Assembly: GCF_007860125.1 (NCBI RefSeq)
Contig: NZ_SJPW01000002.1
Coordinates: 186,001 to 250,000, forward strand
Direction: 5' to 3'
DNA from: Rubripirellula tenax
Lineage (GTDB): Bacteria; Planctomycetota; Planctomycetia; Pirellulales; Pirellulaceae
Length of the DNA: 64,000 nt
The position numbers and the translations under genes are program-made. Positions within the stretch are counted from its first letter, which is position 1, and the number at the start of each line of letters is the position of its first letter. Below the pieces are notes generated by a model. It worked only from the letters and a program-made list of their open reading frames with translations, had not been told where the DNA came from and did not search any database. Below, piece by piece: positions 13,493 through 24,127 of the stretch.

Positions 13493-15040
13493 TTAAGGTT
13501 GAAAGGTATCAGTGCGGAAAGGATATGCCGGCAGCCCTGATGCGTTGACCAAGTTGACACTCGGCTTTCCCGAGAATGCGTAGCGGACATACAAAGGGTG
13601 GCTCAGCCCATCATTGCTTAGCACCACAGCCTCTCCCTCAATTGCTGCGCTCGCAGCAAACCAATTCTTGGAATCGTCGGCCAACCAGAATCCCGTGGGT
13701 GGCTTGCCGTCCGAAGTCGTTAGCCCATCGGCATGTTCGAAGTGGACCGTGATGCGACCAGGTGCGGTCACCACCTGGCTTACCACCGGGCCATCGGCTT
13801 CGACTGCTTGCCCGAGCGTGTCACGCGCGGCCAGCAGCGCCAACCGCTTTCCGATGGGAAGCTTGTCCTTCGGATGAACGTTTTTCGTTTCTCCCAGGTC
13901 GATGCTATTCGACACACCAGTACCGGGGAGCTCTCGTACTTTCAATTGCGATTCTCGCATCCATGCCCACGAGTGTGCGATGGGGTTCTCGGGATCCTTT
14001 GACGGGCCTGAATCGAGTGCCACACCAAACCCGGGCATCATCACCACAAGAACATGCAAGTCGTCGCGATTCCATTCCTTTCGATATCGGGTGACCCACT
14101 GCTTGAGAACGTCGCCATAGATCAACATGCCCGAATTGCGTGAAAACCATGGCGAATCCACCATCCCAAACATCGACTGAGTGTTGCGTTCGCCTTGGTA
14201 CCAAACCAGCCCTCGGCAAGCGAATGGAACTAACGGTTTCATCATCGCGTTGTAAAGAATATTGGGCTGGCGACGCAGAAACACATCGTCTTGATTGCTC
14301 CAGGGCTTGGTACCCGCCAAGATGCTTTGAATCTTTTGCTTGGTCTCGTCGTCTGCATCAAACTCCTGCATCACCGTTTTGAAGTGCGGAACCGATTCGG
14401 TCATGCCACGCGGCATCCAAGCCTCGATGGATGAACTACCCCAACAAGAAAGAATGATGCCAACCGGCACATCATCGGACTGTTGCAAAAAATGAGCAAA
14501 TGCGAATGCCACCGCACTATTGGGCGGGCCGACTTCCCAGTTGCCTTCACAGCTCTCTTGTTCTGTAAACGAAACCGTTCGATTGACTTGAAAGCCGCGA
14601 ATCTTTTTTGCTTCTGGCACCAAGGCGGCAATCTCCTTCACCGCCTGAGTCCCCATCTGCATGTTGGACTGCCCCGAACAGATCCAGACTTCACCCACCA
14701 GCAGATCTGCGATCACGATCTCATCACTGTGCTTTGTGCTAGAAACCGTCATGTCACGGGAATCAACATTCGCTTTCAGTGGATCCAAGTCGACACGCCA
14801 TTTGCCATCGCCGTCAACCAAACCCGACTTGGACTGTCCGGCAAAAGCAACGGTCACCGTAGCACCCGGATCTGCTTTCCCCCAAACGGGAACCGGCATA
14901 TCGCGTTGCAGTACCGCATGATCGGTGAAGAGCGAACCGAGTTGCAGTTCGCCATACGCCGGTTGCGACATCGCAACAGCAAACAGCACGGCGAAACGAA
15001 AACACCGAACCGGTCGACGGCTGGCTTGGCTGGTTCGCAT
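13493..15040 (-). CDS. sialate O-acetylesterase-like SGNH hydrolase (SASA family)
   Basis: A 515-residue secreted enzyme. After the signal peptide the sequence LGSLFTDHAVLQRDMPVPVWG is the usual N-terminal beta-sandwich start of this family. The catalytic block I motif is WICSGQSNMQM, and WGSSSIEAWMPR and LVWYQGERN are further SGNH blocks. Such enzymes remove O-acetyl groups from sialic acids or other sugars in the periplasm; substrate here is probably an acetylated algal polysaccharide, inferred from the neighbouring sulfatases and fucosidase. GTG 15133 would overlap the upstream sulfatase stop by 4 nt, but ATG 15040 gives a normal signal peptide (FRFAVLFAVAMSQPAYG) and is preferred. Confidence 0.88.
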   Translation of the reverse strand: MRTSQASRRPVRCFRFAVLFAVAMSQPAYGELQLGSLFTDHAVLQRDMPVPVWGKADPGATVTVAFAGQSKSGLVDGDGKWRVDLDPLKANVDSRDMTVSSTKHSDEIVIADLLVGEVWICSGQSNMQMGTQAVKEIAALVPEAKKIRGFQVNRTVSFTEQESCEGNWEVGPPNSAVAFAFAHFLQQSDDVPVGIILSCWGSSSIEAWMPRGMTESVPHFKTVMQEFDADDETKQKIQSILAGTKPWSNQDDVFLRRQPNILYNAMMKPLVPFACRGLVWYQGERNTQSMFGMVDSPWFSRNSGMLIYGDVLKQWVTRYRKEWNRDDLHVLVVMMPGFGVALDSGPSKDPENPIAHSWAWMRESQLKVRELPGTGVSNSIDLGETKNVHPKDKLPIGKRLALLAARDTLGQAVEADGPVVSQVVTAPGRITVHFEHADGLTTSDGKPPTGFWLADDSKNWFAASAAIEGEAVVLSNDGLSHPLYVRYAFSGKPSVNLVNASGLPAYPFRTDTFQP

Positions 15041-15129
15041 GATAGTTTTCGGGTGTAAGCGATTGATGTTGATGACTTCGACACGTTGACAAACGATCAA
15101 GGCGTTTCCGACCTCCGCCCGGCACTTGT

Positions 15130-16890
15130 TCACAATGCGAGCACTTCGGTGAAGTAGGCTCCACCCGCACGATCGTTCTCGTCGTAGAGGTACGTCACAA
15201 GATCGGTCGGGCCAGCCGGCAGATCGATATCGAAGATGACTTCCGTACTGCCCTCGACCACTTCTTTTGTTAACTCACGGCCAGCGATCACAAGGGTCGC
15301 ACGCACCGCTTTGATTTCTGCACCCGCTTCCTTGGGCAATTGACGCAGAGTCAATCGGTAGCGTCCCGCCGTCTTGACGTCGATCTTCCAAGGCCCTGTT
15401 GTTTTGGGCAGCTTTCGAATCGAACCGAAGTTCCACGGAGGGTTGCCCGATGGCATATACCAGTCTTGCGAACAAAGAACGGTTGGGTTTTCTACGGGAT
15501 TGCCGACATCGATCCGAACGGGCGTCATGCGTGGCGAGACAGCGTCCCAAAAGGGCGAGTAGTGCTTCATCAACCGCGATACGATTTCGGGATGTTGCGC
15601 CGCGACGTTGTGCTGCTGTGCCGGATCAGCCTTCATATCGTAGAGCTCGTCCTGGTTGATCAGTCGCCAGTTTTTCTCCAACACGCAGGTGTCATTCCAC
15701 GGTTGAGGCGATTCGCGAAAGTAGGCTCCACCTTGGAATTGAACAATCAAGTGATCCCGATGTGGCTTGGCCTGGCTGTCTGTCAATTGACTGGCAAACG
15801 AAATGCCATCGGGATTGTGCGTGGGCGGAACATCGACTCCGCACAATTCGGCTAGTGTCGGCAGCACGTCGATGTGCCCGGCCAATGCATCAACGTCAAA
15901 GCCACCCACGAGACCACCGACCGGCCAATGAACAAAAAACGGAACCCGATGCCCGCCTTCGTAAACCGAAGACTTTTTCCCTCGCATGCCCGCGTTGAAT
16001 CCTCGACTTGGTTCTGAGTCCAATCCTTTGAATTGCCCTCCGTTCGCAGTGCCGTTGTCGGTCATGTAAACCAAGATCGTATTGTCCGCCAAATTCAGAT
16101 CGGCCAGCCTTTTTCGAAGTAGAGATAGGTTGTGATCGAAGTTTGTGATCATCCCGTAAAAGTTCGCACCGCTGCCCCACGTGGCAACCTCGCCGTACGG
16201 GCGGCTCCATTTTGGATCGACGATGTAGGGACCGTGGGGAGCGTTGGTCGCAAGGTACAGAAAGAACGGCTTGGTCTGATTTTCTTCGATGAAGCGAATC
16301 GATTCCCGAAACCAGACGTTGGTGCAGTAGCCTTCGAACTTTTCAAACGCACCGTTTCGTTCATAAGTATCGTCGAAGTAGTCGTTACCCCAAAAATCAG
16401 AAGCCTGGCCAACGCCGCCACACCGATGCCAAACGACGTTTTGAAAGCCGCGATCCTGTGGGCGATGGGGCGAGTTGTCACCCAGGTGCCATTTGCCAAC
16501 CATACCGGTAACGTAACCAGCGTCTGCGAAAACATTGGCAATGGTCCGCTCGTCCGTATGCATCATCGTGCGACCACTGCTGGTCCGATAAGCACCGGTG
16601 CGACCGGGATATCGCCCCGTCATCAGCGCCGCACGTGTCGGTGTGCAAAAGGGACTGACATGAAAGTCCGTCATTCGAACCGACTCGGCGAACAACCGGT
16701 CGAGATGCGGAGTCTTGACGATCGGATTGCCATGACAGGCCAAGTCACCGTAGCCCTGATCGTCCGTCATGATCAATACGACGTTGGGACGCTGCGGCTG
16801 TTCCGCGGTCGCGTGAAAAAGTGGCAACAATCCCAACAAGAAGCCGATTATCGACATTCGAATCCGGAGGCTGGTCAGCGAGTTTTCCAT
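15130..16890 (-). CDS. sulfatase (S1 family, FGly type) with C-terminal beta-sandwich
   Basis: A 586-residue secreted arylsulfatase-type enzyme. After a signal peptide (about residues 1-30) the alkaline-phosphatase-like domain starts with PNVVLIMTDDQGYGD, whose Asp pair binds calcium. The formylglycine site is C82-T-P-T-R, followed by AALMTGR; GKWHLG (about residue 131) and the metal-binding YMTDNGT near residue 275 complete the core. About 100 extra residues at the C-terminus look like a beta-rich module (GPWKIDVKTAGRYRLTLRQL). The enzyme hydrolyses sulfate esters on a carbohydrate. Its ATG overlaps the upstream sulfatase gene by 16 nt, so the two are probably co-translated. Confidence 0.93.
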   Translation of the reverse strand: MENSLTSLRIRMSIIGFLLGLLPLFHATAEQPQRPNVVLIMTDDQGYGDLACHGNPIVKTPHLDRLFAESVRMTDFHVSPFCTPTRAALMTGRYPGRTGAYRTSSGRTMMHTDERTIANVFADAGYVTGMVGKWHLGDNSPHRPQDRGFQNVVWHRCGGVGQASDFWGNDYFDDTYERNGAFEKFEGYCTNVWFRESIRFIEENQTKPFFLYLATNAPHGPYIVDPKWSRPYGEVATWGSGANFYGMITNFDHNLSLLRKRLADLNLADNTILVYMTDNGTANGGQFKGLDSEPSRGFNAGMRGKKSSVYEGGHRVPFFVHWPVGGLVGGFDVDALAGHIDVLPTLAELCGVDVPPTHNPDGISFASQLTDSQAKPHRDHLIVQFQGGAYFRESPQPWNDTCVLEKNWRLINQDELYDMKADPAQQHNVAAQHPEIVSRLMKHYSPFWDAVSPRMTPVRIDVGNPVENPTVLCSQDWYMPSGNPPWNFGSIRKLPKTTGPWKIDVKTAGRYRLTLRQLPKEAGAEIKAVRATLVIAGRELTKEVVEGSTEVIFDIDLPAGPTDLVTYLYDENDRAGGAYFTEVLAL

Positions 16891-18455
16891 AAGTTGATTT
16901 CGTCCAGATCGTTCATGCCGTCGCCTCCGGCCGTGCTACGACCTCGCGATACGTCGGCTTCAAGTTGCTTGAGCAGCCTTTCGGCGACTTCGGGCTTTGA
17001 TGTGTAAAGGTTGTTTGTTTCACCAGGGTCAGCGTCCAAGTCGTAGAGCTGTGCCACAGGACTGTCCTTCGCCGCGTCTTTTTCCGTTGGCTTGCTCCAA
17101 CCTCCCGACGCCTTCGCTAGGCAAAGTTTCCATTGGCCCAATCGGTACGCAAAGTGACCGCTGAACGAATGATGAACAACACCGACGCGCGTCGAAACAA
17201 TCGGGTTGCCCTTGAGTGCCGGAACGAAGCTGACGCTATCCTCGGCCGATCCTTCGGGAAGCGATTCGCCCAACAGTTCAGCGCATGTCGCGAACAGATC
17301 CGTCAAGCAAATCGTCTGGTCGCTAGTCGATCCCGAAGCAACCTGGCCAGGCCAACGCACAATGAATGGAATTCGATGTCCGCCATCCCAGATATCCGCC
17401 TTCGAACCACGTAAATGTGCACTCGGAAAATGTCCGTGGTCTTGCAGTTGTTTGAAGTTGGCGACCTTCGAACAACCATTGTCGCTGCTGAAAATCACCA
17501 ACGTATTGTCTCGAAGACCGTTCCGATCGATCGCCGAAACGATCTCGCCAAAGCCCGCATCGGTTTGCATGACGAAATCTGCGTAAGCGTTGATCCCGCT
17601 TTTTCCTTGCCACTGTTTTGACGGGACAATCGGCGAGTGGGGTGAACCCAACGGCACATACAGAAAGAACGGTTGATCGACAGCCGTCGTGGCTCGCTCG
17701 TCGATGAATTCGACCGCTTTGCGAGTCAGACGCGGCAACATGTTGATTTCGTCATCGTGAGCGATCACTTCATTATCTTCGATCACTGCTTTCATGTCGC
17801 GAGCGTGATGGAAACCGTGGAAGTAATCGAATCCTCGGCTGTTCGGGCCATCCGGGATCTTGCTGCCGACACCCGCTAGAGTGTTTGTCTTGCTTCGTTT
17901 CAGCGATGCACCCGTTACGGAATCCGTGTATTGAAAATTGAGGTGCCATTTCCCAACGATCCCTGCGTGATAGCCATGGGACTTCAAAAACCCCGCCACG
18001 GTTGGACGCCCCTCGGCGATCAAACAAGGCTCAAAACCCTGCACCACACCCTTTTGCAACTTCGATCGCCAGCTATAACGCCCGGTCAACAAACCGTAAC
18101 GCGTCGGCGTACAAACGGATGAACCGGAATGAGCGTCGGTGAACGTCATTCCATCCTTCGCGAGTGCATCGATGCAAGGCGTCGGAATTTTTCCTCGTTC
18201 GGGGTTCAGGCACTGGACATCGCCATACCCGAGATCATCACACAGCACGACCACAATGTTGGGTTTGTCAGCCTCGGCGAACCCACAAACCAGAAGGGCG
18301 AGACCGATCGCGATCGAGCTTGATAGGTGCCGCTTAGCAGCCTGTTGAAAACGGGGTCTGACCCTTTGGAAACGTTGCTGAAACATTGTGAATTCGAAAC
18401 GCCGGAGAGGGTCAGCCCCCTTTTTCAACAGGCTGTTAGTCATGCTTGCGATCAT
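16875..18455 (-). CDS. sulfatase (S1 family, FGly type) with MITE-extended N-terminus
   Basis: A 526-residue sulfatase. NIVVVLCDDLGYGD opens the catalytic domain, C115-T-P-T-R is the formylglycine site, GKWHLN and FSSDNGC are the later metal-site motifs. The N-terminus is odd: residues 7-40 are encoded by a 98-bp inverted-repeat element plus its 4-bp target duplication (102 bp, exactly 34 codons, no stop). Removing them restores a typical leader (MTKRHLSSSIAIGLALLVCG, then FAEA). The enzyme may still be exported if translation restarts or if the longer n-region is tolerated. Starts at ATG 18455 or 18443 are both possible. It overlaps the next sulfatase gene by 16 nt. Confidence 0.9.
   Translation of the reverse strand: MIASMTNSLLKKGADPLRRFEFTMFQQRFQRVRPRFQQAAKRHLSSSIAIGLALLVCGFAEADKPNIVVVLCDDLGYGDVQCLNPERGKIPTPCIDALAKDGMTFTDAHSGSSVCTPTRYGLLTGRYSWRSKLQKGVVQGFEPCLIAEGRPTVAGFLKSHGYHAGIVGKWHLNFQYTDSVTGASLKRSKTNTLAGVGSKIPDGPNSRGFDYFHGFHHARDMKAVIEDNEVIAHDDEINMLPRLTRKAVEFIDERATTAVDQPFFLYVPLGSPHSPIVPSKQWQGKSGINAYADFVMQTDAGFGEIVSAIDRNGLRDNTLVIFSSDNGCSKVANFKQLQDHGHFPSAHLRGSKADIWDGGHRIPFIVRWPGQVASGSTSDQTICLTDLFATCAELLGESLPEGSAEDSVSFVPALKGNPIVSTRVGVVHHSFSGHFAYRLGQWKLCLAKASGGWSKPTEKDAAKDSPVAQLYDLDADPGETNNLYTSKPEVAERLLKQLEADVSRGRSTAGGDGMNDLDEINLWKTR
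18338..18435. mobile_element. 98-bp MITE-like element inserted in a sulfatase gene
   Basis: Terminal inverted repeats of 28 bp (18338-18365 and 18408-18435) match at 26 of 28 positions; each begins CAGCCTGTTGAAAA and reads inward to CTGACCCT. The 42-bp centre has no gene. TTAG occurs directly on both sides (18334-18337 and 18436-18439), as expected for a 4-bp target-site duplication. The structure, without a transposase, is that of a miniature inverted-repeat element. It lies inside the sulfatase leader and keeps the reading frame open. Confidence 0.8.
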
Positions 18456-18571
18456 CGATGGTCAAACCCTGTAGTAAACGCGTGTCCCGGTAAACGTGTC
18501 GTCTTGTTCGCGAACATTTCAGCGACCGAAAATCCGATCCCAAACCATTTCGTGCTGGTTCAAGAATGATC

Positions 18572-19489
18572 TTATCGGATCGCTGGCTGGGCCGATTCGT
18601 CGTAGTGCTCCGCCGACGCCACACTTTCCAGGTAGCCTAGCGAAACCAGAAACGCCACGCTGTCCTTCATGCATTGGTTGTACGGAGTTGTGTCCTTTGT
18701 CTTCGGGCGAAAGAAGGCTCCATTGAAAAAACCATGCCCTTGGCCTTCAAAGGGTTTCAAGTCACACCGATTGCCAGCCTCGGTCATCAACCCGGCGAAT
18801 CGTTCTGCATTCTCAAACGGAACCGTGGTGTCTTTCGTTCCATGCAGTAACAACGTTGCCACGATGCCAGGTCGGATGTGATGGCACGGCGATAGGTCGG
18901 TCTTTCGTTGTTCATCAAATCGGGCCGACCCATATCCATTTTCCGTCGTATCGAGAACGGGATTGAACAGGATCATCGCGTTGGGAACCGAGCTAATGGA
19001 AACGTCTTCCCCATCGCCGTCAAGACCTACGATCACGCCCGTACAAGCTGCAATATGGCCGCCCGCGGAACCTCCCGAGGCGACAATCCGATTCGGATCA
19101 ATTCCCAGTTCGGCCGCATGTTGTCGAAGCCAGCGAATCGCCGATTTTGCATCCTCAACCGCCTGAAAGGGAGTCGTTCCGTTTCGACTTTTGACACGGT
19201 AATCGGCAGAGATTGCGACGAGCCCTCGCTTGGCAAAAAAGTCGGCCTGTTCGTAAAACTGAGACGCCGTTCCGCCATTCCAACCACCGCCAAAGAAAAA
19301 CACGATCGCGGGAACCTTCGCGTCTGCTTTGTGATTCACGGGATCGAAAACGTGCAGTTTCAGTGCGACATCTTTGATCTTCTTGTAAGTCACTGTTCGG
19401 GTCGGTGTGATCTCAACAGCCGACGCTTCCCCGGGCAAAAACAGGCCAAGCAGAATCGCTACAGCAATCGTCTTGATGGCTTCGTTCAT
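18572..19489 (-). CDS. secreted alpha/beta-hydrolase esterase (BD-FAE/acetylxylan-esterase-like)
   Basis: A 305-residue protein with signal peptide (AIKTIAVAILLGLFLPGEAS, cleavage after ASA) and one alpha/beta-hydrolase domain. IVFFFGGGWNGG near residue 62 is the oxyanion motif (HGG variant with the first His replaced by Phe-Gly), S141 in ASGGSAGGH is the nucleophile, LLHGTKDTTVPFENA holds the catalytic Asp region and GQGHGFFN the catalytic His. Such enzymes of the esterase/lipase and feruloyl or acetyl esterase families cut ester groups from plant or algal polysaccharides. Context between two sulfatase/glycosidase groups supports a carbohydrate esterase role. Confidence 0.87.
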   Translation of the reverse strand: MNEAIKTIAVAILLGLFLPGEASAVEITPTRTVTYKKIKDVALKLHVFDPVNHKADAKVPAIVFFFGGGWNGGTASQFYEQADFFAKRGLVAISADYRVKSRNGTTPFQAVEDAKSAIRWLRQHAAELGIDPNRIVASGGSAGGHIAACTGVIVGLDGDGEDVSISSVPNAMILFNPVLDTTENGYGSARFDEQRKTDLSPCHHIRPGIVATLLLHGTKDTTVPFENAERFAGLMTEAGNRCDLKPFEGQGHGFFNGAFFRPKTKDTTPYNQCMKDSVAFLVSLGYLESVASAEHYDESAQPAIR

Positions 19490-19510
19490 GAAACTGTTCC
19501 GTTTAATTGT

Positions 19511-21022
19511 TTAGAACTTGATTTCGATTTTGTCCAGAATCGGTTTCGATAGATTCTCGGTTGTGTCCTTGATCTTGATCTCGAACTGAAACCCATATCC
19601 ATCTGGCAACTGCGACAAGTCCAACGTTGCGGGTGTCCTCGCAATTTGTTTTGCGAAACCGGGAATGTAGTCGTAGCTTTCTTTCACTGCGGACCAATCG
19701 CTCCACTGATCGATCGTGTGATCGTTGTCGGTATCGACGCCGACGCGAACCTGGACGTCTTCGACCCAAGGCCCGGGGCTGACAAAGTCCATGGGCTGTT
19801 GCGTCGCCAAATAGAACTTACCTTCCGCAAACATGACGTCGGGATCGGGGTGCCCTTTTCCGACATTGCCGCACCATGTGAACGGTTCGGTGATGCTTGA
19901 AGATGTGAACCAACCGACGCTCATCGACTTGCTGTCGGCCGGATCATAGTCACAGAACAGGTAGTACTGGCCACCGATCGAAATCGCCGCCCAATCACCG
20001 TAAGCATTTTGCTCGGGTTCGTGGATCTGATACTCAGCAATGTTGGTCTTAAATCGTTCTGGGTTTTCCTTCAACCAATGCGGATGCTTGTAAGTCCCCG
20101 TCTCGCCGGTCGGTTTCGTGCGTTCATCCACCGGTGGGGCAAGCAGTTTGAAGTCTTGAATGCCATCGGGACTGACCGCGTGCGCCGCAAGAGGCGAATC
20201 CCATGCATGACGTTGTGCATTGATCGGACTCCAGTCTTCCACGATCAAGTGGAACTTTCCGTCCAGGTCACGAATGATCGCGCAGTCGGAACCGTGCGTT
20301 GGATCGTCGTAGGCCATTCCTTTGTTTTCACCGGGAACACCATCGAACATATCGGCATCGACATAGACGTGGGGATCCTGGTCATTGGGAAAGTCGTAGT
20401 AAAAATACGCTTTACCGTTGGCGTACTCGGCCGTCGTCATCCATGCGGATTTCTTTTCCGTGATCGCGCCGTGATGCACCCAGTTGACCATGTCTTTACT
20501 TTGCCACGCGTGGTAACCACCTAACCTTGGCTGCAGTCCGCCCGGTGCATCGAACTGATTCGGGAATCGTGTCGTTTTCAACGGAACGTCAAAGCCTTCG
20601 AGCGTTGCCGATTCGGGCACGAAGGGAGGTTGCTTGGACGTATCGCCTCGTTTGCGTCCATTTCCATAGCGACCAAACATCCAGTAGTTATCCGGCCCAA
20701 GACTCAACATCACCGGAGCATCGCCCAGGTTGGTTGGACCAAGGTCATCGGCTTGTTCCCAGTTTTGCCAAACAGCAGACTGAGTCACCGTGATCGACTT
20801 TGCCGATCGTTTCTCGTCAAAGGAGTTGAGCTTGCTTTGCAAAGCTGCCGTTTGCCCGGTCGGCACCGCCATTCCGTCCTGAATTTTCACGTCAGACTGG
20901 CTCGCCATTCCGTCGACCCAATCGGACTGGCTATCCACCGTCCAAGCGTTTTGGGCGTTCGCAGTCGAGACGAGGCTGCACAACGAAACGGCGACGATCG
21001 AGCTAAGGAAGTATTGGTTCAT
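19511..21022 (-). CDS. beta-propeller glycoside hydrolase-like protein (GH43/GH117-like)
   Basis: A 503-residue secreted protein. Signal peptide (NQYFLSSIVAVSLCSLVSTA) then repeated four-strand segments: GDAPVMLSLGPDNYWMFGRY, GYHAWQSKDMVNWVHHG, TTAEYANGKAYFYYDFPND, GSDCAIIRDLDGKFHLIVEDW, GDWAAISIGGQYYLFCDYD, HPDPDVMFAEGKFYLAT. That periodicity is typical of five-bladed propeller glycosidases such as GH43 and GH117. I cannot name the substrate. The ATG overlaps the stop of the upstream fucosidase by 4 nt (ATGA), so the two are translated together and probably act on the same fucose-containing glycan. The long frame upstream of ATG 21022 runs back into the fucosidase gene and is not used. Confidence 0.75.
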   Translation of the reverse strand: MNQYFLSSIVAVSLCSLVSTANAQNAWTVDSQSDWVDGMASQSDVKIQDGMAVPTGQTAALQSKLNSFDEKRSAKSITVTQSAVWQNWEQADDLGPTNLGDAPVMLSLGPDNYWMFGRYGNGRKRGDTSKQPPFVPESATLEGFDVPLKTTRFPNQFDAPGGLQPRLGGYHAWQSKDMVNWVHHGAITEKKSAWMTTAEYANGKAYFYYDFPNDQDPHVYVDADMFDGVPGENKGMAYDDPTHGSDCAIIRDLDGKFHLIVEDWSPINAQRHAWDSPLAAHAVSPDGIQDFKLLAPPVDERTKPTGETGTYKHPHWLKENPERFKTNIAEYQIHEPEQNAYGDWAAISIGGQYYLFCDYDPADSKSMSVGWFTSSSITEPFTWCGNVGKGHPDPDVMFAEGKFYLATQQPMDFVSPGPWVEDVQVRVGVDTDNDHTIDQWSDWSAVKESYDYIPGFAKQIARTPATLDLSQLPDGYGFQFEIKIKDTTENLSKPILDKIEIKF

Positions 21023-22557
21023 TGAATCAATGTGGGGTTGGGATGATGCTGTTCTTGGTCGGTCACGATTTCGAATACCCAAGCATGTTCGGTGGTGCCT
21101 AGATCCGCGGGTGGCGTGATCTGTAAACCAGACGACGTCATCGACCAGAGCACGGATGATTCGGAACCTAGCAAGCGAACCGAATGCACCTGTTTGGCGT
21201 TCCATCCGGCGGCACCACTAACGGTGAATCGCCCGGCGGGTTTGGCTAGCTTGATCGCGTACAGGCTCTTGTCCCTGGTAGTGAACGCGAGCTGCTCGTC
21301 CTTCTGCTCGCTCTCTTTCCAATAGCGGGTACCGTAGATCGCATCGCCGTTGATTTTCAACCAATCACCCATCGCACGCAGTCGCTCGACCTGTTCGGGA
21401 ACCAGCGTGCCGTCGGCTTTCGGGCCGATATTGATCAGAAAGTTTCCGTTGCGGCTAATCACTTCAACCATTTCGTGAATCACCCTTTCGACCGACTTGT
21501 ATCCGTCACCTTCCAAGTAACCGAAGGAACTGCCGAACGTCGTGCAGCTTTCCCATTTGGGACCGATCACTTTCAGTTTCAAATTGTCTTTTTCTAAGCA
21601 TCCGACACCCTCGGGCCAATTTCGGTTACCACCCTTGTTGTTCAAATAAACGTCTTGACCACGCGCAGCGGCATCGTTCATGAAGTCGGTAATCATTGAC
21701 CGGCATTGATCGTAAAAGTACCGCACCTCTGGCTTGAAAACTTGGGGACTCTTCCGCGTGTCATTGCCATCACGCGTGAAGATCGGCACATCGTCGATCC
21801 ACAAAAAATCGGGCTGGTACTTGGTTTGAATCTCTTTCCAACGGGCGACGTAGTCGTCGACAAAGGCCTTGTCGAGACGGAATGGGCCGTACAGTGAAGC
21901 GGCTTCGGGAACGCGACGAATCTCTTCGGCAACATCGGACCGCGGTTCGCTGTGAACGACATACAAATCGTTGGCAAAGAAACCGGTATGACGTTCACGA
22001 TGATACGACGGAGCGTACTTCAGTCCACGTTTTCGCACCGCCGTGCCCAAGTCGCCCACGAGATCCCGCTTGGGGCCTTTGTCGGCCGCGTTCCATGGGG
22101 TGAGATCCGAATCCCAATTGGCCCAACCGTCGTGGTGCTCGGCGGTCAGCACGACATACTTGGCCCCCACGTCGGCGAACAAGTCCGCCCAGGCATCGGG
22201 ATCCCAATTTTCGGCTTTGAACTCCGGGATGATGTCCTTGTAACCGAACTGCGGTGGAGTCGATCCCCAGCGCTTTTGCATGTACGGATAATAGTGATCC
22301 GGTTCAGCGTACAACAGTTTCGGCACGTGTTCGGCATAGCCACGATTCCCCTTCTTATAACCGATGACGCTGTACGGTCCCCAGTGGATGAAGATGCCGA
22401 TTTTTCCATCGTCGAACCAAGCCGGCACCGGCATCTTTTGAAGCGATTCCCAACTGCCGTCATACTTCGCACTCGCCGAATCTTGCGCCCAGGAAGACGC
22501 GGCGATCAACAATGACAACAAAACGCAAACAAGAGAAAGCGGTCTTAAAAAATACAT
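21019..22557 (-). CDS. alpha-L-fucosidase, GH29
   Basis: A 512-residue secreted GH29 enzyme. Signal peptide about residues 1-24 (LSLVCVLLSLLIAASSWA). The barrel shows GIFIHWGPYSV near residue 54, KYVVLTAEHHDGWANWDS (about 133-150), KRDLVGDLGTAVRKRGLKYA, and the nucleophile region FLWIDDVP with D255. NGNFLINIGPKADGTL (late in the chain) is also typical. A beta-sandwich forms the C-terminus. It removes terminal alpha-L-fucose. ATG 22557 chosen: it begins the signal peptide, and the 42 upstream codons lie in the spacer after the sulfatase. Coupled downstream to the propeller protein. Confidence 0.92.
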   Translation of the reverse strand: MYFLRPLSLVCVLLSLLIAASSWAQDSASAKYDGSWESLQKMPVPAWFDDGKIGIFIHWGPYSVIGYKKGNRGYAEHVPKLLYAEPDHYYPYMQKRWGSTPPQFGYKDIIPEFKAENWDPDAWADLFADVGAKYVVLTAEHHDGWANWDSDLTPWNAADKGPKRDLVGDLGTAVRKRGLKYAPSYHRERHTGFFANDLYVVHSEPRSDVAEEIRRVPEAASLYGPFRLDKAFVDDYVARWKEIQTKYQPDFLWIDDVPIFTRDGNDTRKSPQVFKPEVRYFYDQCRSMITDFMNDAAARGQDVYLNNKGGNRNWPEGVGCLEKDNLKLKVIGPKWESCTTFGSSFGYLEGDGYKSVERVIHEMVEVISRNGNFLINIGPKADGTLVPEQVERLRAMGDWLKINGDAIYGTRYWKESEQKDEQLAFTTRDKSLYAIKLAKPAGRFTVSGAAGWNAKQVHSVRLLGSESSVLWSMTSSGLQITPPADLGTTEHAWVFEIVTDQEQHHPNPTLIQ

Positions 22558-22594
22558 GAAGCAAGATCTCGTAGAGTTCAGTGGATGGCAACCG

Positions 22595-24127
22595 TTATTG
22601 CTGAGCTTTCGCCTGCTCTCTAGCTTTTCTTCGTTGAGCGGCGCGGCTTGGCTTTTCACTGGAATTCGGCTGAGGCTGTCCACTCATCTTCGCTAGGTCT
22701 TTCTCCGATGGACTGCCACCGAACTGTTTGAAATACAGTTCTTGAAAAGGATTGATTTTTACCGGCATGACGTCTTCATTCACCATCAACGGTTGAATGT
22801 CGTTCCACCACGCGTCGTATGCGGCACGCAGTTGGGTCACGATTTCAGGATGTTGGTCGATTACGTTTTTTGTCTCACCGGGATCGGCTTTTAAGTCATA
22901 AAGCGCCGTGTTTTCAACCAACGAAAAACGCGAATTTTGGATCGCTGCTTTGCTGTACTTCGATTCCGCTACCGTTCCCTTTTTCCAGCGTCCGGTGTGA
23001 TGCACTAACGTCCGGTCGGTCCATTGGGCGCTTGGGTTTTTCAATAGCGGAACCAGACTGCGACCTTCGGCTTGCTCTTGCATCGCAGGCGTCAATGTTG
23101 CTCCAACGATTTCGGCCAACGTGGTGTAAAGGTCTAGGTGCGCGCTAAGAGCGTCACACTTTTCGCCTGCAGGAATTCCACCAGCGGGCCAGCGGAAGAA
23201 CGTCGGCGACAAGGTCCCGCCTTGCGTCACCGAATTCTTACCACCGTTCAACCCCGAATTAAAAATCCGTCGACTAATCCCGCCACCGTTGTCGGTGCCG
23301 ATGTAAATCACCAATGTGTTGTCTTCGATGTTCCAATGCTTCAGTTTCGCCAACAGCTTGCCAAAGTTTGTGTCGATGTTCTCGACCATCCCGAGATACT
23401 TTGCCAGATCATCACTGATGTTCGGCTTGCCCGCGTAGTTGGCGCAATACTCATCGGGCACGACATGGGGTCCGTGGGCGGCATTGAGCGAGACGTAAGC
23501 AAAGAACGGTTGGTCACCCTGGCGTTTCGCATCGATCCACTTGATCGACTGCTCGAAAAACAAGTCGGTGCAATAGCCTTCGGTTTTTACGAACGTACCG
23601 TTATGCCACAACGTCGGATTGATGTTGGTGTTTCCGGGTGCGTCGCCGCACGAACCGGGAAACGTTTGCCCGATACCACCAGCACCGTGAATGTACACTT
23701 CATCGAAGCCGCGACTCTCGGGCCGATAGGCTTCTTCATCACCCAAATGCCACTTGCCGAAGATGCCGGTCGTATAACCCGCGGTCTTCAGCATTTGCGG
23801 CATCGTGATCGTGGCCAAACTCATTCGCTCACGTTCTAGAATCGTGTGCGTCACACCATTCTTAAATTCGTGGCGACCACTCATCAATGCCGCGCGACAC
23901 GGGGAACACGTGGGGCTGACGTGGAACTGCGTGAACAGCAAGCTTTCCTTCATGAACGCATCGACCGATGGCGTCTTCAAGATAGGATTGCCGAGACAGC
24001 CATAGTCTCCGTAGGCCAAGTCGTCGGGCATCACGATGATGATATTCGGCTTGGCGGGCGGAGTGTCCGCAATCGCAACACTCGCTGCGACGATGAGCAA
24101 CGAGAACGCAGAGAGAAACTTATTCAT
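22595..24127 (-). CDS. sulfatase (S1 family) with unusual CSPCR active-site motif
   Basis: A 510-residue secreted sulfatase. Signal peptide about 1-20, then NIIIVMPDDLAYGDYG, GKWHLGDEE (about residue 122) and IGTDNGGG. The formylglycine site reads C74-S-P-C77-R78: the Ser/Thr usual at the fourth position is Cys. The core C-x-P-x-R is kept, so conversion to formylglycine is still plausible. The C-terminal 40 residues are charged and Ala/Lys-rich (RAAQRRKAREQAKAQQ). It is first in a likely transcription unit with the fucosidase, 37 nt apart, so its substrate is probably a sulfated fucose-containing glycan (inference). Confidence 0.9.
   Translation of the reverse strand: MNKFLSAFSLLIVAASVAIADTPPAKPNIIIVMPDDLAYGDYGCLGNPILKTPSVDAFMKESLLFTQFHVSPTCSPCRAALMSGRHEFKNGVTHTILERERMSLATITMPQMLKTAGYTTGIFGKWHLGDEEAYRPESRGFDEVYIHGAGGIGQTFPGSCGDAPGNTNINPTLWHNGTFVKTEGYCTDLFFEQSIKWIDAKRQGDQPFFAYVSLNAAHGPHVVPDEYCANYAGKPNISDDLAKYLGMVENIDTNFGKLLAKLKHWNIEDNTLVIYIGTDNGGGISRRIFNSGLNGGKNSVTQGGTLSPTFFRWPAGGIPAGEKCDALSAHLDLYTTLAEIVGATLTPAMQEQAEGRSLVPLLKNPSAQWTDRTLVHHTGRWKKGTVAESKYSKAAIQNSRFSLVENTALYDLKADPGETKNVIDQHPEIVTQLRAAYDAWWNDIQPLMVNEDVMPVKINPFQELYFKQFGGSPSEKDLAKMSGQPQPNSSEKPSRAAQRRKAREQAKAQQ

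Follow-up and report, generated by a model that had tools for sequence, protein, structure and literature searches.

The window analysed here is a stretch of 64,000 nucleotides of Rubripirellula tenax DNA. On its reverse strand, at 16875-18455, lies a sulfatase open reading frame of 526 residues (insert included), which matches PF00884 at residues 65-396 (E = 4.7e-51) and contains a single CxPxR motif, in CTPTR. The surrounding cluster, at 13493-24127, holds three sulfatases, an alpha-L-fucosidase, a sialate-esterase-like protein, an alpha/beta hydrolase and a weak GH43 match, and looks like a locus for a sulfated, fucose-containing polysaccharide.

At 18338-18435, near the start of the sulfatase gene, a reading of the sequence reveals a 98-bp MITE with near-palindromic ends, visible also with a repeat finder, in the alignment of its copies and with a family model. 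Its 28-bp terminal inverted repeats lie on the forward strand at the left end (18338-18365) and on the reverse strand at the right end (18408-18435). They are equal at 26 of 28 positions, a count made by eye on the repeat-finder strings; the repeat finder itself gives arms of 31 nt (18335-18365 and 18408-18438) that are 90% complementary. The element is bracketed by a target site duplication, TTAG, whose first copy (18334-18337) is read from the sequence and has its counterpart in identical 4-bp duplications at 24 of 41 aligned copies, and whose second (18436-18439) is read from the sequence and the copy alignment; neither element nor duplications are assigned a strand. Element and one TTAG together make 102 bp, or 34 codons, and the reverse-strand reading frame passes through them without a stop. 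The original prediction of a 98-bp element with 28-bp inverted repeats and a TTAG duplication, amounting to 34 codons free of stops, is therefore confirmed by the sequence and the repeat finder, as is its claim that the gene was left open, since the 526-residue frame runs through the element. The feature is a real and well-supported MITE insertion at the signal-peptide region.

The insertion follows the second codon of the sulfatase gene, in the CTAA of ATG-ACTAAG. When the element and one TTAG are deleted, direct reading gives ATG ACT AAG CGG CAC..., that is MTKRHLSSSIAIGLALLVCG, with MTKRHLSSSIAIGLALLVCGFAEADKPN as the resulting leader, which bears out the earlier claim that removal of the element restores a leader; an element-free allele at this site would read ATGACTAAGCGG. 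The probable ancestral start, on the reverse strand, is the ATG at 18441-18443 (MTK...), which aligns with the start of the leader of a paralogue in the same genome (MNRIITTT...AAKPN). This nearest paralogue, on contig C5, is 70% identical from residue 44 and has a short leader, MNRIITTTVLSLLAFWHIADASAAKPN, that begins at the equivalent ATG. It sits in a duplicated esterase-sulfatase block: the pair at window positions 16875-19489 recurs at C5:123800-126400 (locus L210) with about 66-70% DNA identity.

The insert is absent from all 15 leaders read in sulfatase homologues of other genomes (the best 15 of 29 relatives' loci, 48-65% identical) and from the three paralogues read in the R. tenax genome itself. 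Since a short leader is present in paralogues and homologues, the element was added to a pre-existing signal peptide. The original prediction had taken the sharing of the 34 residues by all orthologues as a sign against insertion, and none of these 15 homologues has them. Among 22 genomes of the genus no strain-level empty TTAG site was found, the strongest match outside the R. tenax genome being 69% at the DNA level. Another sulfatase homologue (G000:C3:95498-97020) matches as two slightly overlapping pieces and is probably frameshifted.

The element is far from unique. A DNA search of the 8.0-Mb R. tenax genome (42 contigs; 40 of 74 candidates scored) returned, as its 40 best places, sequences that share 87-100% identity with the window copy. 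A covariance model built from 27 canonical copies identified at least 45 distinct places at E <= 0.001, the weakest two with E-values of 1.8e-5 and 8e-4; this is a lower bound, 150 of 3741 first-look candidates having been scored. Similarly, the 14-base end CAGCCTGTTGAAAA, allowing at most one mismatch, has 45 forward and 44 reverse matches, against three and five for a reversed control pattern. A search for other copies of the 28-bp repeat had been proposed as a check on the original prediction, and a lack of them as evidence against it; the search yielded many. The ends and core of the element are conserved across the family, so that the reading of the feature as a chance hairpin with no mobile element involved is refuted and retains practically no weight.

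The family has the properties of a MITE: it is short (98 bp, at most 34 codons) and has no transposase gene, its terminal inverted repeats are conserved across the 27-copy alignment, its copies are dispersed in the genome, and it generates a target site duplication. The 41 copies aligned are those with a best match of at least 75 bp, and 27 of them are exactly 98 bp long, the other 14 having different lengths. Some longer copies contain short internal or terminal duplications (L094 1446-1558, L103 1513-1627 and L010 1505-1620). The family ends read CAGCCTGTTGAAAAAGGGG(T/G)CTGACCC. Identical 4-bp flanks at the 24 copies are TTAG (eight), CTAA (seven), CTAC and ATAG (two each), and CTGG, TTAC, GTAG, GTAA and CTAG (one each), while flanks differ by at least one base at the remaining 17. 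TTAG or CTAA thus accounts for 15 of the 24, the pattern YTAR for 16 and NTAN for 23, so the duplication is NTAN in nearly all cases. We are highly confident that the window feature is a copy of this planctomycete MITE family that transposed into the start of the sulfatase gene, kept the frame open and left an element-coded leader.

The open frame should not be taken as a trace of selection. The element has one stop-free frame per strand, and 27 of the 41 copies, for the most part non-genic ones, have a length divisible by three and are open on both strands; an open frame alone is therefore no sign of selection, and selection for the open frame of the sulfatase copy was rejected as an explanation. 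By our estimate, two open frames out of six are unremarkable.

Which start codon the interrupted gene now uses bears directly on what the insertion did to the protein. A scan of in-frame starts on the reverse strand finds the ATG at 18455 (18453-18455, MIASMT...), the probable ancestral ATG at 18443, a TTG at 18428 and an ATG at 18386 (18384-18386, inside the element), and then no further ATG, GTG or TTG between element and mature domain until the GTG at 18254, in the mature domain. With no usual start codon in that interval, export from a usual start requires residues coded by the element. The signal peptide would now have a basic, element-coded N-terminal stretch, and the start would be either the old ATG, with 34 added residues, or the ATG of the element. 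The sulfatase is presumably still exported.

The start may thus have been replaced rather than extended. Translation would then begin at the ATG at 18386, with 17 element-coded residues from the methionine to the junction and an n-region reading MFQQRFQRVRPRFQQAAKRHLSSS, and the old ATG would be dead. This ATG is present in frame, its methionine occurs in the same frame in 28 of the 41 copies, and the minimum free energy fold of the mRNA places it within the apical loop of a stable hairpin (191 nt, -72.4 kcal/mol, z = -4.57) that begins a few bases past the old ATG and leaves both upstream ATGs largely paired. Initiation within a strong hairpin is unusual, however, and inspection by eye found no Shine-Dalgarno-like motif upstream of either ATG. 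We rate replacement of the start at slightly below an even chance. As to the original prediction that 34 residues were added, the 102 bp are indeed open and absent from the homologues, but the figure assumes use of the old ATG, and the ATG at 18386 could serve as the start.

Expression of the sulfatase is not guaranteed given such a hairpin with paired upstream ATGs, and the insertion may have crippled the gene through a hairpin at its start codon and an odd n-region, the frame being open only through recency or redundancy. The strong hairpin predicted across the start region and the existence of the 70% identical paralogue on C5 are in keeping with this, but the 526-residue frame and the CxPxR motif are intact, and the copy differs from the family consensus at four of 98 bases and so need not be brand new. 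Loss of function in this manner appears unlikely to us. A transcription terminator in the leader was also considered and rejected: a scan of 18250-18650 with a loop limit of 8, which the hairpin of the element may escape, found none.

Two further copies are captured in frame. One, at L029 1504-1601 (C1:1404713-1404818 with duplications), adds 34 residues to a KASIII-like protein of the FabH family, directly after the PF08545 match (residues 146-211) and before PF08541 (314-402). The insert is absent from all 24 aligned homologues. Of these, 23 belong to relatives; the remaining one is encoded in the same genome, so that the cell has a further KASIII besides the interrupted protein. The other, at L008 1504-1601 (C6:320021-320126 with duplications), lies in a 358-residue open reading frame that matches no Pfam family and resembles a membrane protein by eye; it is absent from two close homologues (47 and 49% identical), a third, distant homologue being uninformative.

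Besides these two and the sulfatase copy, our own coding score, a scan from which insertions beside start codons can escape, places none of the 41 clearly inside a gene, and all three are in an open frame, which by our arithmetic has a chance of about 1/27 if two of six orientations are open. The gene calls behind the genic and stop counts come from this hexamer score, not from annotation. A scan of joined flanks needs 45 nt on each side and misses insertions near starts; it did not list the sulfatase, for which the evidence is homology, and others may escape it likewise. It flagged L017 as broken, a copy that the analysis of stop distances places at a stop codon. Compared with the YTAR sites, 385 of 664 of which are genic, three genic copies of 41 are very few (P = 1e-11), a strong depletion within genes of the kind expected under purifying selection.

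In 19 of the 41 copies the stop codon of the adjoining gene, TAA or TAG, makes up the final three bases of the target duplication (for example L002, L010, L017, L024, L094 and L105), counting genes of at least 80 codons with a score above 0.12. Both duplications are identical in 11 of the 19, and the other eight retain the stop side and have a different sequence at the far side. Matched YTAR sites fall at stops in 28 of 397 cases (7%), which predicts 2.9 of 41 copies against the 19 seen (P = 7e-12); against non-genic YTAR sites only, with a stop share of 14%, P is 2e-7. The excess shrinks when the comparison is with YTAR sites 0-100 nt downstream of stops, with odds of 2.0 (P = 0.048) when both sides of each copy are counted and 2.7 (P = 0.009) when stop copies enter with their stop side only, the 22 and 16 nonzero stop distances that enter these tests having been taken by hand. 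In the metagenome-assembled genomes PLA5 and OFTM264 and in G032, a genome from another family of the order, three of 16 resolved copies land at stop codons, a further 14 matches with boundaries not fixable by script having been dropped.

It is tempting to see the family as a lodger of gene ends, a terminator-like element of which the sulfatase copy is a rare misplacement, and the 19 copies at stops against 2.9 expected from YTAR sites speak for this. Against it stand the only two- to threefold excess over YTAR sites just downstream of stops, the low share at stops in the other genomes and the empty terminator scan around the sulfatase copy; on balance we find it doubtful, if worth keeping in mind. 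Most of the excess at stop codons can be explained by the YTAR target together with the loss of harmful insertions, and true targeting of stop codons is possible but weakened. We would tentatively propose, as a conjecture with the balance somewhat against it, that stops are safe landing sites, where an NTAA or NTAG duplication rebuilds the stop, and that at coding misses the 102-bp unit with its open frames lets some genes survive with an insert of 34 residues. Stop-codon landing, if it reflects targeting and not selection alone, would offer a mobile element a simple and harmless route of spread.

The MITE may have a partner in the same genome. A 1.2-kb IS at C8:121996-123217 (L077 997-2218) ends in the roughly 27-bp termini of the MITE, with one mismatch at one end; its 62-nt arms are 85% complementary and it is flanked on both sides by CTAT. 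Its transposase is broken into two overlapping frames, for which a Pfam search gave no family; the first piece matches the IS4-type model NF033592 at E = 3.6e-23 with 82.2 bits, below the cut-off of 115. This piece has three matches in the R. tenax genome: the C8 copy, a match on C12 that is short and weak, and one on C4. The last belongs to a related IS (L118 819-2556) with an open IS4-type transposase frame of 548 codons, which scores 167.1 bits against NF033592, above the cut-off, and shares 32% identity with the C8 piece where the two align. Its arms contain the inner GGGGTCTGACCCGAATGGCACT of the C8 ends and lack the outer CAGCCTGTTG. The C4 locus could be a working relative.

The likeness to IS4 elements seen with NF033592, below cut-off for the C8 copy and above it for the C4 relative, does not extend to the duplications, which are of around 10 bp in IS4 proper and of 4 bp (CTAT) at the C8 IS. 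IS701 elements, by contrast, generate 4-bp duplications as the C8 IS does, but the terminal consensus listed for them is unlike CAGCCTGTTG (PMC2266710). The C8 IS is left unplaced, since its duplication is unfit for IS4 proper and fits IS701 in length.

Most likely the MITE was mobilised in trans, by a transposase like that of the decayed C8 IS; the broken state of this copy speaks against such a source, as do the low identity of its open C4 relative and the end that the relative lacks. The target was the CTAA of ATG-ACTAAG, where the sulfatase gene begins. The frame of the gene stayed open because each strand of the element offers a frame free of stops and the added length, duplication included, is 102 bp, and the signal peptide would now be made with a basic, element-coded N-terminus, from the old ATG or from that of the element.

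The fusion of MITE-like repeats to genes in frame is established, for RPE and others (PMC10969869, PMC2229807, PMC5896051). The Rickettsia palindromic elements (RPE) are short palindromic repeats lying in frame in unrelated protein genes (PMC10969869, PMC2229807), as here; they belong to another phylum, and the planctomycete copies are mostly outside genes, with three of 41 clearly coding. The target site duplication of RPE is entered as '?' in a published table (PMC2229807), whereas the present family has a clear 4-bp duplication and an IS with the same ends. The enterobacterial RU-1/ERIC and Yersinia RU-2 units described by Delihas are MITE-like with open frames fused to genes (PMC2229807); they differ in size, and in our case paralogues and homologues have the homologous leader in its short form. 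Coxiella QMITE2 is a MITE that in some instances interrupts open reading frames without shifting the frame, but has 150-190 bp, direct repeats of 7-11 nt and a mainly 3' untranslated or intergenic location, against 98 bp and 4-bp duplications here (PMC5896051). MITEAba12 is likewise a small MITE; it has the same ends as an IS resident in its genome, which is probably what mobilises it. Its duplications are of 9 bp, however, and stops in all six frames make it break genes, whereas the element described here has one open frame per strand (PMC6382973). GTAG REPs are palindromic as well, with TAG ends that often supply the stop codon to flanking reading frames (PMC3733652). REPs, however, are palindromes of 20-40 bp that carry the tag at a single end, a definition that the 98-bp element, with its terminal inverted repeats and identical 4-bp flanks, does not fit.

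A literature search on planctomycete MITEs and on MITEs or ISs at stop codons, covering titles and the beginnings of abstracts, found no description of this MITE family. The family is new; in-frame MITEs, one of them in a signal peptide, are already in print. With the sulfatase insertion, the few bacterial MITEs seen to turn into protein sequence gain a clear planctomycete example, which has the paralogous gene block and its short leader as an internal control and two sister captures beside it. It also provides a natural test of the N-terminal burden that a signal peptide can bear.

Matches to the family were found in four of 40 genomes (R. tenax, included in the four, and 39 relatives) and in seven of 392 genomes of a phylum sample, R. 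tenax again included, a rough view with at most two candidates scored per genome. A plasmid collection gave no match to the element, and no TIR words were found at the relatives' IS copies L107 and L112. In a contig collection, from which records of the R. tenax genome may have been left out, 24 stretches contain the 27-base end pattern without mismatch, all in the two Planctomycetota genomes PLA5 and OFTM264. None of seven open reading frames across G032 copies matched a Pfam family. That genome carries many copies at about 74-80% identity, with the same ends, a different core and nearly the same length; these sister MITEs lie at loci L031, L034 and L036-L046.
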